Below are positions 38,142 through 43,216 of a stretch of DNA of 44,814 bases, in pieces. Origin of the DNA: Thermoplasmata archaeon (lineage in GTDB: Archaea; Thermoplasmatota; Thermoplasmata; Thermoplasmatales; Thermoplasmataceae); NCBI GenBank assembly GCA_021818675.1, contig JAKATR010000024.1:1-44814 (forward strand), written 5' to 3'. A model generated the notes under the pieces. The model did no database searches. It worked only from the letters and a program-made list of their open reading frames with translations, and had not been told where the DNA came from. How positions within the stretch are numbered: position 1 is the stretch's first letter; the number at the start of each line of letters is the position of its first letter. Made by a program: the position numbers and the translations under genes.

Positions 38142-39704
38142 TTAAGCCATAACTTCCTCAGTCATGTCAAGAGTTTCGAACAGTCTCACTCTATCTTTGT
38201 AGAATAGATTGATCAGGTTATAGAATTCCTTGTAATTGTTTATCTGTCTTTCAATCATTTTATCCAGTATTTTTGCCCGTATTTCCACTTCTTTTTCAAG
38301 GTCAGATTCGTATTTCCCTTCTTTCTCCGCAATTCTTTTAAGGACATAACTGAACCCAGAATAGGGGTTTGTATCGGTTACGGGATTCCATGTGAATGCA
38401 TTATTTACAACTATTTCTGAGCTAAGTTGATCCTGCCCGGTTATTTCGGATACTGTCTGAATTCTCCTGAAAGACCCTTTTTCTGATGTGAGATTTGACA
38501 GGATTATTACCACATCCAGAGTCAAAATCAGATTTCTGGGAATATTGATTGGTTTTGACTCCATTCTATGGATAAAGGTCTGGATATCATCAGCATGGAA
38601 GGTTCCGAATACATATCTGCCTATTGACATTGCCTGAAAGACAGTAAAGGCTTCAGCACCCCTTACCTCTCCTACAACCACATAGTTAGGTCTTTGTCTC
38701 ATTGTGACCGTGAGAAGATCAAACATGTCGATCTCTCCAATTCTCTTTCCCGTCTCTTTATCAAGCTGCCCATACCCGTTCCTTGTGATCATGGCAACCC
38801 AGTTTTCGTGCACCAGATTGATTTCTCTTGTATCCTCAATGGAAACTATCTTTCTCTGCGAGGGGGCAAATAGAAGAAGTGCATTAAGAAACGTTGTCTT
38901 TCCTGTGGCTGTTCCACCAACAACCATAATATTCGCACCGTATTCCACAAGCACCCAGAAATAAGCGAAAACCCTTGAATCACACAATCCTTTCTGAATA
39001 AGATCAAGAGCAGTAAGTGGTTCACTCTTAAATTTCCTAATGGTAAAAGATGGTCCCTTACTGGTAATATGTGTTCCTATTGAGGCGGATATCCTTGATC
39101 CATCAAGGAGTGTTGCATCTACAATTGGATTTGCAATTGATATATGTTTCCCAGCATCCTGAACTATTTTTTTAATAAAATAATTCAGTTCTTCTTCGTC
39201 TTCATATTTCACATTGGTTGGTATATATCCGAAATTTCTGTGAAAGATATATACCGGAGTTTCTTCCCTGTCGCATGATATATCCTCGATATTTGGGTCT
39301 TTTAAAAGTCCGTCGATCTTTTCGAATCCCTTAATATCCCTGTTAATGTAATAGGTCAGCGTGTCGGTATCAGTGGTATTCATTTTATAGCCATCCTCTT
39401 TTAATTTGAGCATAAACAGGGAAGGAATCTGATCCCTCTGAATATCCCCGAATTTTTCTGGTTCCGTTATGGCCCTAATAAAATCTCTTTTCAGTCTTGA
39501 ATATCTTTTGTAGAGAGTTGGGCTTATTTCAGGTTCTATCAATTCATAAACAAAAGTTGATGTCACCCTGTTTAGATAAACTCTAGAATAAACAACTCCC
39601 GGCACAATCTCCTGAAATATAAGGTCTTCAGTTGCCCTTTTAGGAAATATTATCTTGGTGGAAACCTGTGACTTCCTCTTCTTATTTTTCTTAAAAATGC
39701 TCAT
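38142..39704 (-). CDS. Type II/IV secretion system ATPase (GspE/TadA/FlaI superfamily), second copy
   Basis: These hexameric ATPases power pilus, archaellum or secretion machines. The 520-residue protein has an N-terminal domain with a basic start (MSIFKKNKKRKSQ), then the motor domain: Walker A GGTATGKTTFLNA, Asp box SIEDTREINLVHENW, Walker B VVVGEVRGAEAF, and His box GTFHADDIQTFIHR. It ends with a charged helical tail. ATG directly abuts the stop of the upstream platform gene. It shares architecture with the ATPase at 41527 but is clearly diverged, so the locus has two motors. Confidence 0.88.
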   Translation of the reverse strand: MSIFKKNKKRKSQVSTKIIFPKRATEDLIFQEIVPGVVYSRVYLNRVTSTFVYELIEPEISPTLYKRYSRLKRDFIRAITEPEKFGDIQRDQIPSLFMLKLKEDGYKMNTTDTDTLTYYINRDIKGFEKIDGLLKDPNIEDISCDREETPVYIFHRNFGYIPTNVKYEDEEELNYFIKKIVQDAGKHISIANPIVDATLLDGSRISASIGTHITSKGPSFTIRKFKSEPLTALDLIQKGLCDSRVFAYFWVLVEYGANIMVVGGTATGKTTFLNALLLFAPSQRKIVSIEDTREINLVHENWVAMITRNGYGQLDKETGKRIGEIDMFDLLTVTMRQRPNYVVVGEVRGAEAFTVFQAMSIGRYVFGTFHADDIQTFIHRMESKPINIPRNLILTLDVVIILSNLTSEKGSFRRIQTVSEITGQDQLSSEIVVNNAFTWNPVTDTNPYSGFSYVLKRIAEKEGKYESDLEKEVEIRAKILDKMIERQINNYKEFYNLINLFYKDRVRLFETLDMTEEVMA

Positions 39705-40484
39705 CTATATAACACCCGCGAATGTAAGCACTACAAAACTGATTAAAAGGAGAACTCCAGCAATCATTGCACCTGATACAAGTCGACCATCCCTGAAAAC
39801 CCCTGAAATGAGTCCGCTTGTCAAGGACTGAACTATGATTCCCAGACTGAATATCCTCTCAATCACGGGAAAACTTGCCACTCCCGGAGAGAGGGTTGAT
39901 CCTGAAATACCAGATGGTTTTAGCTGAGTGAAAAAGTCCAGATCTAACATCAGGATTACGAAAAGAAAAACACCGTATGAAACAGCCATGACCATTGAAT
40001 AATTCTGCATATCTGCAGCTCTGCTTTCCCTCATCAGGTAAGTTTGAGTGGTGAAACTTGAAATCATGGATATAACATCTGCAGTGTTACTGCCTGATTC
40101 GCTGGCCTTCTTAAGAATTTTTCCTACTCTTGCTATGGTCTGATCACCAAGAATTGTACCGAATCCATCAAGAGCATTTTCAACCGGAACACCAATACTG
40201 ATCAGACTTGCAACATGCCGCACTTCTTCATTCAAAGGTCCATAGTCATTTCCGGAACTTCTAAGGATAGCCTCTGACACGGGGGTTCCAAATGTTGTGT
40301 GGCCTGCAAGATCCCTTAGAAAATCTGGAATCCTTCTTTCAGCCTCCTGCAATTTTTTAGTTTCTGCAAAGTCCGCCATGCCAAATGGAAGAAGAAGAAT
40401 GATCAGCAGGATTGTGGACATGGTTAATGGATGAACTAGAATACTTATTGATGGAACAAATCCTTTGATTCCCAAAAAAATCAA
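39705..40484 (-). CDS. Type II secretion F-domain platform protein (TadC-like)
   Basis: A single T2SSF-domain membrane protein. The core reads RRIPDFLRDLAGHTTFGTPVSEAI, then DYGPLNEEVRHVASLISIGVPVENAL and a SESGSNTADVISMISSF stretch, with helices at both ends. The start is unclear. TTG 40484 has AGGAG eight bases upstream, but it cuts the first membrane helix. Twenty more codons extend to an ATA at 40544 that has an ideal GAGGTG (40550-40555) five bases before it, and this ATA overlaps the previous gene's TAG. If that start is used, the protein is 279 residues with a complete first helix. Confidence 0.82.
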   Translation of the reverse strand: MIFLGIKGFVPSISILVHPLTMSTILLIILLLPFGMADFAETKKLQEAERRIPDFLRDLAGHTTFGTPVSEAILRSSGNDYGPLNEEVRHVASLISIGVPVENALDGFGTILGDQTIARVGKILKKASESGSNTADVISMISSFTTQTYLMRESRAADMQNYSMVMAVSYGVFLFVILMLDLDFFTQLKPSGISGSTLSPGVASFPVIERIFSLGIIVQSLTSGLISGVFRDGRLVSGAMIAGVLLLISFVVLTFAGVI

Positions 40485-40540
40485 TAAGGCATCTCCTGAT
40501 CCAAATGCAGCAAGTACATAATATTTCAGCTTTATTGGCG

Positions 40541-41524
40541 CTATAGTTTCACCTCGTTAATAGTGCTGCTCAATATGAGCGCAAACATTACTGCAATTAC
40601 CGGTATTATAACCAAAACTATAAGGTACAGAACAAGAGAAAGTACAGGACTTGGATCAGGTGTTAAAGAGGCAACAACCCCAATTATGATCATCAGAATT
40701 AGCGGGAAAGTAACTCCTACGATTATGAAACTTTCTGCCATGACCGAGAGTGATTCAGAATTTCTTTTGACCACGGTGCTTAGTTCGGTTTCATATTGAA
40801 GGGCCTTTTGCTTGAAGTATTCTTTCAGATCGCCTCCGGATGTTACAGTAGTTATAATGCCCTGAAGAAACTCAGAGAGTTTGATTGAAGGCGTTAAAGA
40901 TGCGCCTTCCTTAATAGCGGTGACAATATCCTTACCAAACAATTTTGTGGTAATTGAAATACCCTTTGCTTCTCTGGATAGTTCCCCGTATTCTTCGCTC
41001 TTTGATAATTCGTATAGTATACTGTCCACAGAAACATCTGCAGAAGCCATTGTTGCTATATATCCCATTGCTATTGGCAGAACAGCGTCTATCTTTTTTC
41101 TTCGGCTTCCAGCGACAGAATTTGGGAGTTCAACCATCAGGGTAAAATAAACGACGATGGTCATGAACCATATTGCAAATGCCAGAAATGCATAATGCGG
41201 GAGCCTAAGGGCAAATATGTTGGCAAAAATACCTGATACAATGATAAATATGAGAGCACCCATAAATACCCTCGATAAATATTCAACACCTGTAAGAGGC
41301 ATTTTGGCTTTTTGGAGCGTAACATCTACTCTTGAAGTATCTGAATATTTCATGATCATTTCTCCGAAAATTTCCAGAGAAAGCCTGTCAAACATTCCAA
41401 GTCTCTCAACCCTGAGCTTCTTTATTCTCCTGGGATCATCCTTTTTTTCCTTTGTCCCTTTGACTATATTTCCAGTTTTTTTAAGCCCCTTGGTGACTCC
41501 GTCCTTTGAAAATACACTTGACAT
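40541..41524 (-). CDS. Type II secretion F-domain platform protein (TadB-like)
   Basis: The 327-residue protein has a basic, lysine-rich N-terminus (about 60 residues, cytoplasmic), two helices, a central cytoplasmic T2SSF domain (KIDAVLPIAMGYIATMASADVS, then YGELSREAKGIS, DIVTAIKEGASLTPSIKLSEFLQG) and two or three C-terminal helices. It begins two bases after the ATPase stop, so it is made with the first ATPase. Together with the 39705 protein it would provide the two F-domains that in archaellum FlaJ lie in one chain. Confidence 0.86.
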   Translation of the reverse strand: MSSVFSKDGVTKGLKKTGNIVKGTKEKKDDPRRIKKLRVERLGMFDRLSLEIFGEMIMKYSDTSRVDVTLQKAKMPLTGVEYLSRVFMGALIFIIVSGIFANIFALRLPHYAFLAFAIWFMTIVVYFTLMVELPNSVAGSRRKKIDAVLPIAMGYIATMASADVSVDSILYELSKSEEYGELSREAKGISITTKLFGKDIVTAIKEGASLTPSIKLSEFLQGIITTVTSGGDLKEYFKQKALQYETELSTVVKRNSESLSVMAESFIIVGVTFPLILMIIIGVVASLTPDPSPVLSLVLYLIVLVIIPVIAVMFALILSSTINEVKL

Positions 41525-41526
41525 TA

Positions 41527-43110
41527 TTATCCGCTCCCTGCCATCCTTAAGGCAAATGCGGGATCTTTGTAATAAATGTTCACGATTCTGGTTAGATTTG
41601 CATAATCCACGATATTGGCATCAACCATTAATCCCACCAGTTTCTTTCTTCTTTCAAATTCCTCATTAAATTCTTCATCAGTCATTCTTCGAGACTGTTG
41701 TATCTCTTTCAAAATCTTACTATAACCACTATATATCTGTGTATTCAGATTAAAGTCAAAACTGTAAACTTTGTTATATAGTATTTCTCTGGTTTCTGCA
41801 TCAACACCAATAACTTCATCTATTTCAGTTATTTTTCTTACCATCCTGTTACCAATTTTAACGAATTTGTTAAAAATAACGAAATTTAAGGAACTGATGA
41901 GAACCCTGGGTATGTTCAGCGGAGTTGATTCAAGTCTATTCACCAGAGTATCCATGCTATCTGCATGTATTGTTGAATAGGCAGTATGACCAGTGGATAT
42001 TGCCTGAAAGAGTGAATATGATTCCCTGCCCCTTATTTCTCCCAAAAGGATATAAGTTGGTCTTTGTCTCATTGCCATTCTTACAAGCTCAAACATACCA
42101 ATGGGCGCATTATGGCCGGATAAATTACCCTGATTATACACACTCTCCCTGGTTGACGTAGCAACCCAGTTTTCGTGCATTATATTTATTTCACGGGTCT
42201 CCTCAATGCTAAAGACTTTGGTATTAGGCGGAATAAACATCATCATCGCATTTAAGGTAGAGGTTTTTCCAACTCCAGGTACTCCCGCAATTATTCCTGA
42301 CTTCAAATTTTCAACAGCAAACCAGAGATAGGTTACTATATCTGCAGTAGCTGCCCCGTATTTAACTATCTCCACTGGTGTGAAAGGCGTTTCCCGGAAA
42401 AGCCTGAAAGTAAAAGAAGATCCTTTTGTGGATATCTCATTTCCATATGTAATCTGAATCCTGTGACCCTGAGGAAAAGTACCATCCATAATTGGATCGT
42501 TCATGGAAATTTCTTTGCCACAAAGCTGTGCAAGTCTTATTACATACGAATCGAGATCTTTTTCAGAGGCAAACAGTATATTCGTTCTCAATGGGCCATG
42601 CCTCTTATGTTCTATAAATATGGGAATACCTATTCCATTACACGAGATATCTTCAACAAACTGGTCCCTTATTATGGGGTCCAATGGTCCAAAACCTTCA
42701 TAGTCTCTTTGAATGTAATATTTGTATTTTTCTACGGAGGTCTTTGGTATTTTTGTTCTCCTGGAGGTCATATATGAATCTATTATCTGTTCAATATCTT
42801 TTACAGAAAATTCTGTGGGCAGATTATTTGAGCTTCTGACGATTTGTTCCATATTCTTGGAAATGATCTTTACTTCCTGAAGCTCTGCCTCTGAAATTTC
42901 AGGTTCATGGACAATATACAGGGTTTCCATGGTATCCTTATTCCATGCTATTTCAATAGACACCACTCTTGGGATTATATCATATTCATCAACAATTTCA
43001 TATGAACGGTTAATTTGAGGAGCTTCCGGCTGTACTTCTACAGAGGCATTCTTCAACTTATCCTTCTTCTTATTAATTTTCTTGGGAGATACTTTGATTC
43101 CACTTTTCAT
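41527..43110 (-). CDS. Type II/IV secretion system ATPase (GspE/TadA/FlaI superfamily), first copy
   Basis: At 527 residues, with a lysine-rich N-terminus, an N-terminal domain containing YYIQRDYEGFGPLDPI and VEDISCNG, then Walker A GVPGVGKTSTLNA, Asp box SIEETREINIMHENW, Walker B ILLGEIRGRESYS and His box STIHADSMDTLVNRLES. MRQRPTYILLGE is shared with the second copy. It is the first gene of the four-gene motor locus. No pilin or prepilin peptidase gene is visible beside it, so the substrate is unknown. Confidence 0.9.
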   Translation of the reverse strand: MKSGIKVSPKKINKKKDKLKNASVEVQPEAPQINRSYEIVDEYDIIPRVVSIEIAWNKDTMETLYIVHEPEISEAELQEVKIISKNMEQIVRSSNNLPTEFSVKDIEQIIDSYMTSRRTKIPKTSVEKYKYYIQRDYEGFGPLDPIIRDQFVEDISCNGIGIPIFIEHKRHGPLRTNILFASEKDLDSYVIRLAQLCGKEISMNDPIMDGTFPQGHRIQITYGNEISTKGSSFTFRLFRETPFTPVEIVKYGAATADIVTYLWFAVENLKSGIIAGVPGVGKTSTLNAMMMFIPPNTKVFSIEETREINIMHENWVATSTRESVYNQGNLSGHNAPIGMFELVRMAMRQRPTYILLGEIRGRESYSLFQAISTGHTAYSTIHADSMDTLVNRLESTPLNIPRVLISSLNFVIFNKFVKIGNRMVRKITEIDEVIGVDAETREILYNKVYSFDFNLNTQIYSGYSKILKEIQQSRRMTDEEFNEEFERRKKLVGLMVDANIVDYANLTRIVNIYYKDPAFALRMAGSG

Positions 43111-43216
43111 TTGAGATTATCTATCTTATCAGGCAATATAAATTTTTTCGACTCACATTGATTCATCGTCAAAAAGAATGTACTCCCAAAATAAACTTTT
43201 TTGATTCGAACGATAA

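Follow-up and report, generated by a model that had tools for sequence, protein, structure and literature searches.

The DNA analysed here is a 44,814-nucleotide window from a Thermoplasmata archaeon, and position numbers refer to this whole stretch. Four genes on its minus strand (38142-43110) probably encode the motor and platform of a CdiP-type machine for type IV pilus assembly, in which two motors divide the labor and the pilins are encoded at unlinked loci. The four-gene unit is orthologous to the machinery for the CdiP pilus in Cuniculiplasma divulgatum. The dual-ATPase cassette is an old, shared and co-retained feature of many Thermoplasmata. The first and last genes are called ATPase U and ATPase D (E2 and E1, respectively, in the analysis scripts); these labels are our own and need not match CdiPE1 and CdiPE2. 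The two platform proteins between them are called Fa and Fb.

41527..43110, minus strand: ATPase U, GspE/ArlI-type secretion ATPase, 527 residues (Pfam T2SSE, E 4.6e-27)
40541..41524, minus strand: Fa, N-terminal platform half (T2SSF/TadC-like), 327 residues (Pfam T2SSF, E 1e-12)
39705..40544 (ATA start, about 279 residues) or 39705..40484 (TTG start, 259 residues), minus strand: Fb, C-terminal platform half (Pfam T2SSF, E 4.2e-12)
38142..39704, minus strand: ATPase D, GspE/ArlI-type secretion ATPase, 520 residues (Pfam T2SSE, E 2.1e-29)

The genes are read in the order ATPase U, Fa, Fb, ATPase D. There are 2 bases between U and Fa and none between Fb and D. Fa and Fb overlap by 4 bases (ATAG) if Fb starts at ATA, and are otherwise separated by a 56-base gap. 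All four proteins score well over the Pfam cut-offs, T2SSE for both ATPases and T2SSF for both platform proteins. The first-pass annotation described an ATPase, F-domain, F-domain, ATPase order with tight junctions, and the open reading frames (ORFs), Pfam matches and junctions bear this out. The order is far beyond chance and recurs in 64 fetched loci.

In C. divulgatum, two ATPases accompany a platform that consists of CdiPFa and CdiPFb; the pilins are encoded about 500 kb away, and the pilus has been solved by cryo-electron microscopy (Gaines et al. 2025, PMC12448462). The same four loci were listed earlier as CPM_0710-0713 (Golyshina et al. 2016, PMC5155288). Genome G048 of this study is C. 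divulgatum or a near twin; two adjacent pilin genes 862 bp apart (1214340 to 1215202) lie about 533 kb from its cassette, both as published. The window proteins are 69% (U, compared with L041), 60% (Fa), 58% (Fb) and 65% (D) identical to their G048 orthologues. The unit therefore shares with CdiP two orthologous ATPases, a split platform, the gene order on one strand and pilin genes located elsewhere, at 58-69% identity per protein. It differs in that the source genome has archaellum genes, which C. divulgatum lacks, that the major pilin is unrecognized in the incomplete source assembly, and that Fb has a non-standard start codon. Since the published machinery already combines two ATPases with a split platform, this kind of system was known before.

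The 2025 report called the CdiP pair unique and its second ATPase enigmatic (PMC12448462). The search covered the order (117 genomes) and a sample of the class (300 genomes), and the fetched loci were then read. Because the ATPase-Fa-Fb-ATPase order recurs in 64 of these loci (some contigs were fetched twice), the arrangement is not unique to C. divulgatum. They include Aciduliprofundum/DHVE2, Methanomassiliicoccales-labelled and haloalkaliphilic Thermoplasmata assemblies. The arrangement had been taken as unusual in the first-pass annotation; it is instead found across the order and class, and was already published for C. divulgatum. In genomes at least 95% complete, with best E-values compared by eye, both ATPases are present or both are absent, and four genomes are unclear (G162, G190, G232, G278). 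Within the window's own family, several complete genomes lack the four-gene order (genera g2, g5, g10, g13 and g15), and the g15 members that were read keep only the archaellum-type ATPase. In several genomes of family f2, the gene for ATPase U is located away from Fa-Fb-ATPase D.

The two ATPases are ancient paralogues, each forming its own clade across Thermoplasmata, rather than recent copies. A quick tree of 138 rows hinted at a recent duplication inside the window's family, as the fast-evolving sequences of that family clustered together. In a careful tree of 88 rows, made after removal of the longest rows and thinning, each ATPase group is a single clade (support 100/99 for U and 96/76 for D). 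Each clade holds its G048 orthologue, and orthology holds position by position. Forcing the U and D sequences of the window's family together was rejected in the approximately unbiased (AU) test (p-AU 0.004, longest family rows left out). A family-specific duplication is therefore rejected and the U/D duplication is ancient. A second two-ATPase arrangement, ATPase-ATPase-Fa-Fb, occurs in other Thermoplasmatota (L096, L130, L135, L137, L149, L153). These tandem-type ATPases represent a separate duplication in the 88-row tree, and ArlI is a distant outgroup. This suggests that duplicated pilus ATPases arose at least twice in the phylum.

Both ATPases have intact Walker A, Asp box, Walker B and His box motifs. 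No variation occurs among 48 U and 46 D sequences at the core residues: G, G, K and T of Walker A, E of the Asp box, G and E of Walker B and H of the His box. This agrees with the intact Walker motifs noted earlier in both. The idea of two diverged motors thus withstands the objection that they might be recent duplicates of one clade with one dead member. The clearest differences between the groups are at U 216/D 203 (H vs S), U 222/D 209 (Y vs L) and U 225/D 212 (E vs H or Y), and a fourth separating position is U 343/D 331 (V vs L). Three of these four positions lie between, or next to, the invariant arginines U 217 and U 236. This stretch is presumably the part of GspE-type rings that faces the nucleotide of the neighboring subunit. 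With the divergence located where subunits presumably meet and the catalytic residues unchanged, the paralogues look specialized at the ring interface and not dead. Among solved structures, archaeal GspE 2OAP/2OAQ is nearest in sequence (E 8.8e-109 for U and 2.1e-109 for D against 2OAP), followed by Sulfolobus FlaI 4II7/4IHQ. The model for VirB11 of type IV secretion (TIGR02788) gives 118 and 113 bits for the two ATPases against a cut-off of 250.

The genes flanking the four-gene unit do not include a pilin, prepilin peptidase or archaellum gene. The first-pass annotation reported that a pilin was missing; this is correct for the locus but not for the genome. A pilin gene and a prepilin-peptidase-like gene lie on other contigs of the source genome (G000).

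G000:C59:162-827, minus strand: type IV pilin gene, N-terminus ...EEDAVSPIIATIILIAITIVLAATL (Pilin_N, E 8.2e-9)
Contig C18, L178:946-1692: prepilin-peptidase-like ORF, 248 residues, with aspartate motifs SDVKKR and GIGDIKG (D, GxGD)

The C59 gene is the single pilin found in the source genome, and the congener G070 carries a CdiPB-like pilin. A Peptidase_A24 scan of five genomes returned nothing in the source genome. Searching with the archaeal Arc_PepC_II family brought up ORFs with weak but consistent matches, and the C18 ORF is likely to be the prepilin peptidase.

In the proposed mechanism, Fa and Fb together would form the platform that is one two-domain protein in many archaeal systems. 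ATPases U and D would be active ring motors that both act on this platform; most likely they form separate rings serving different steps or conditions. Pilins would be supplied from unlinked genes and processed by an unlinked prepilin peptidase. The chance that U and D form separate rings with distinct roles is about even. We infer from the sequences that the source organism makes such a pilus, as well as the composition of the rings and their division of labor. Several results weigh against this interpretation. The C59 pilin resembles the C. divulgatum-type major pilin (CdiPB-like) only over its N-terminal 57 residues, in an assembly that is 84% complete. The match of the C18 ORF to Peptidase_A24 is weak (E 0.0057) and below the cut-off. 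C. divulgatum, which has both ATPases, was not seen to twitch (PMC12448462), and the present results do not tell two rings from one mixed ring.

It is possible, though doubtful, that one ATPase polymerizes the pilus and the other depolymerizes it, an archaeal invention parallel to PilB/PilT. Two ancient, active-looking paralogues that share one platform and are co-retained almost strictly would fit such a role, and the separate location of ATPase U in family f2 is as expected for a motor added on to a core assembly unit. However, neither ATPase is close to PilT (45 and 42 bits with the PilT/PilU model TIGR01420, cut-off 319), and twitching is lacking in C. divulgatum. A second motor is also not needed for retraction, since pilus retraction in Sulfolobus takes place with a single ATPase gene in the operon (PMC11178785). 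The division into extension and retraction motors suggested in the first-pass annotation lacks direct support, and it should not be assumed that the second motor is equivalent to PilT. A broader proposal is that one ancient duplication, separate in origin from bacterial PilB/PilT, let Thermoplasmata invent a two-motor pilus engine with dedicated ATPases for extension and for retraction on a two-part platform, that both have been kept together since, and that a separate tandem duplication did the same elsewhere in the phylum. This is tentative and rather improbable.

Alternatively, ATPases U and D may alternate in one hexamer, in keeping with the two-part Fa/Fb platform. In favor of such a mixed ring, the paralogous ATPases are inherited together with the two platform halves as one operon, and the positions at which the ATPases diverge cluster where subunits presumably meet. 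This is unlikely, as the split platform is widespread with one ATPase, the asymmetric loss of catalytic residues often seen in mixed rings does not occur here, and ATPase U can be encoded apart from the rest. It seems equally unlikely that the two are interchangeable or condition-specific assembly motors for different pilins with no part in retraction. C. divulgatum does have several pilin genes per genome, and paralogous ATPase/TadC modules have been argued to share pilins (Makarova et al. 2016, PMC4858521); but here both ATPases are in one operon with one platform, and they are retained together almost strictly across the class.

An archaellum motor is a very improbable identity for the four-gene unit. 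The archaellum ATPase is the best NCBIfam model for both ATPases, but they score 389 and 353 bits with this ArlI-family model, below the cut-off of 550, and ArlI is an outgroup to them. On contig C3 of the source genome, a separate ArlI of 735 bits is encoded next to ArlH and to an ArlJ whose two halves share a single frame. With separate archaellum genes in the genome, this identity was rejected. The archaellum motor ArlI/ArlJ has a homologous ATPase and platform; it differs in having one ATPase, one unsplit ArlJ and an adjacent ArlH.

In other lineages a pilin-like gene stands beside the cassette. A protein of about 300 residues with a class-III-like N-terminus (EGVASTVGT...) adjoins it in 35 fetched loci outside the window's family (for example L055:3508-4425, L109:11214-12050 and L069:9474-10316, plus 32 more). 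Two members match DUF7289, one of them above the cut-off. A confident structural model (predicted local distance difference test score, pLDDT, 88) shows an N-terminal helix of 68 residues and a head that is mostly beta, the layout of a type IV pilin. A fold search with this model gave no meaningful match in the PDB. In size and context the protein is similar to arCOG02911, a minor pilin of Makarova et al. No match to the protein was found in the source genome, two congeners or C. divulgatum, and in several other members of the window's family it is unlinked from the cassette. Since the gene is found beside the cassette elsewhere and is unmatched in this lineage, the lack of a local pilin looks like a derived state.

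The platform proteins are halves of one ordinary archaeal platform protein, since Fa aligns to positions 5-240 and Fb to positions 299-546 of a single ArlJ model of 555 positions. The split had been likened to bacterial Tad systems. It is real here, but it is not specially Tad-like, because many archaeal loci with one ATPase are split as well, and two tadC genes are found in many euryarchaea (Makarova et al. 2016, PMC4858521). Among the fetched loci, single ATPases occur with split platforms in Methanosarcinales, Asgard and Bathyarchaeota assemblies, and platforms are unsplit in Halobellus, Methanoperedenaceae and Methanolinea. In several genera Fa has a long extra part (481-658 residues vs about 320; L046, L047, L048, L050, L051).

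The start of Fb is unusual. Upstream of 40484 its frame contains no ATG, GTG or TTG, though it is open up to the Fa stop. The sequence at the Fa stop, GAGGTGAAA(C/T)TATAGCG, is kept in four congeners, with the ATA overlapping the TAG stop, as is a GAGGTG upstream of the ATAG (region 40484-40556, minus strand). The first residues read from the ATA (IA.IKLKYYV) are invariant save one in these congeners, and 48 of the 83 substitutions between the ATA and the first TTG are at third positions. The simplest reading is that Fb most likely starts at an AUA codon (ATA 40544-40542) coupled to the Fa stop. The C. divulgatum Fa/Fb junction is a plain ATGA overlap. Fb begins without ATG in a frame other than that in which Fa ends, as would be seen if a frameshift or assembly error had interrupted one FlaJ gene; this reading is nearly inconceivable and was ruled out, given the split conserved in the four congeners and throughout the class and the clean overlap in C. 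divulgatum.

Among other known systems, the Aciduliprofundum boonei type IV pilus locus also has two distinct ATPases, noted within one locus by Makarova et al. (2016, PMC4858521), and DHVE2/Aciduliprofundum-type loci have the same four genes. They differ from the window locus in the adjoining pilin-like gene. The Sulfolobus Aap pilus (AapE, AapF) likewise has a type IV pilus ATPase and platform, with pilins that can be unlinked, but has one ATPase, one unsplit platform and AapX. The bacterial Tad pilus (TadA/CpaF, TadB, TadC) has a related ATPase and two half-size platform proteins. It differs in its one bifunctional ATPase; no further Tad genes are found here, and the two ATPases score 145 and 150 bits with the TadA family model TIGR03819 (cut-off 373).

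A predicted promoter element was read from the sequence ahead of the first gene.

43135..43145, minus strand: TATA-like element AAATTTATATT

The element ends 24 bases ahead of the ATPase U ATG at 43110, a spacing that fits a leaderless transcript. On one side of the unit are an antiporter and a NAD-synthetase-like gene, and on the other a methyltransferase and a cyclophilin, all read from their sequences. No RNA family or tRNA was found near the locus.

Several related genes were seen in passing. ATPase U is in a longer open frame (736-840 residues) with a basic N-terminal extension in some genomes of the Cuniculiplasma group (genus g4: L021, L019, L020, L022). A 602-residue ORF in the source genome (G000:C84:36295-36654, L004) has a weak T2SSE match; we take it to be probably a member of the archaeal PIN-KH-ATPase family and not a pilus motor. 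The genome that contains L065 (G004:C66) has the ordinary genes and, at this locus, a second ATPase-Fa-Fb-ATPase unit that is very diverged. In several Aciduliprofundum-type loci the cassette is followed, on the opposite strand, by a gene for a large surface protein that has CARDB repeats and zinc ribbons (L056:9607-14238 and relatives).

The earlier view was that each archaeal pilus is run by one ATPase. Two ATPases with a split platform were known from C. divulgatum since 2025; their ancient, class-wide co-retention in Thermoplasmata is added here. With an old pair retained together and both active sites conserved, the role of the second motor can now be put to the test, and there is a wide choice of organisms and a set of precise residues with which to ask why an archaeal pilus needs two motors.

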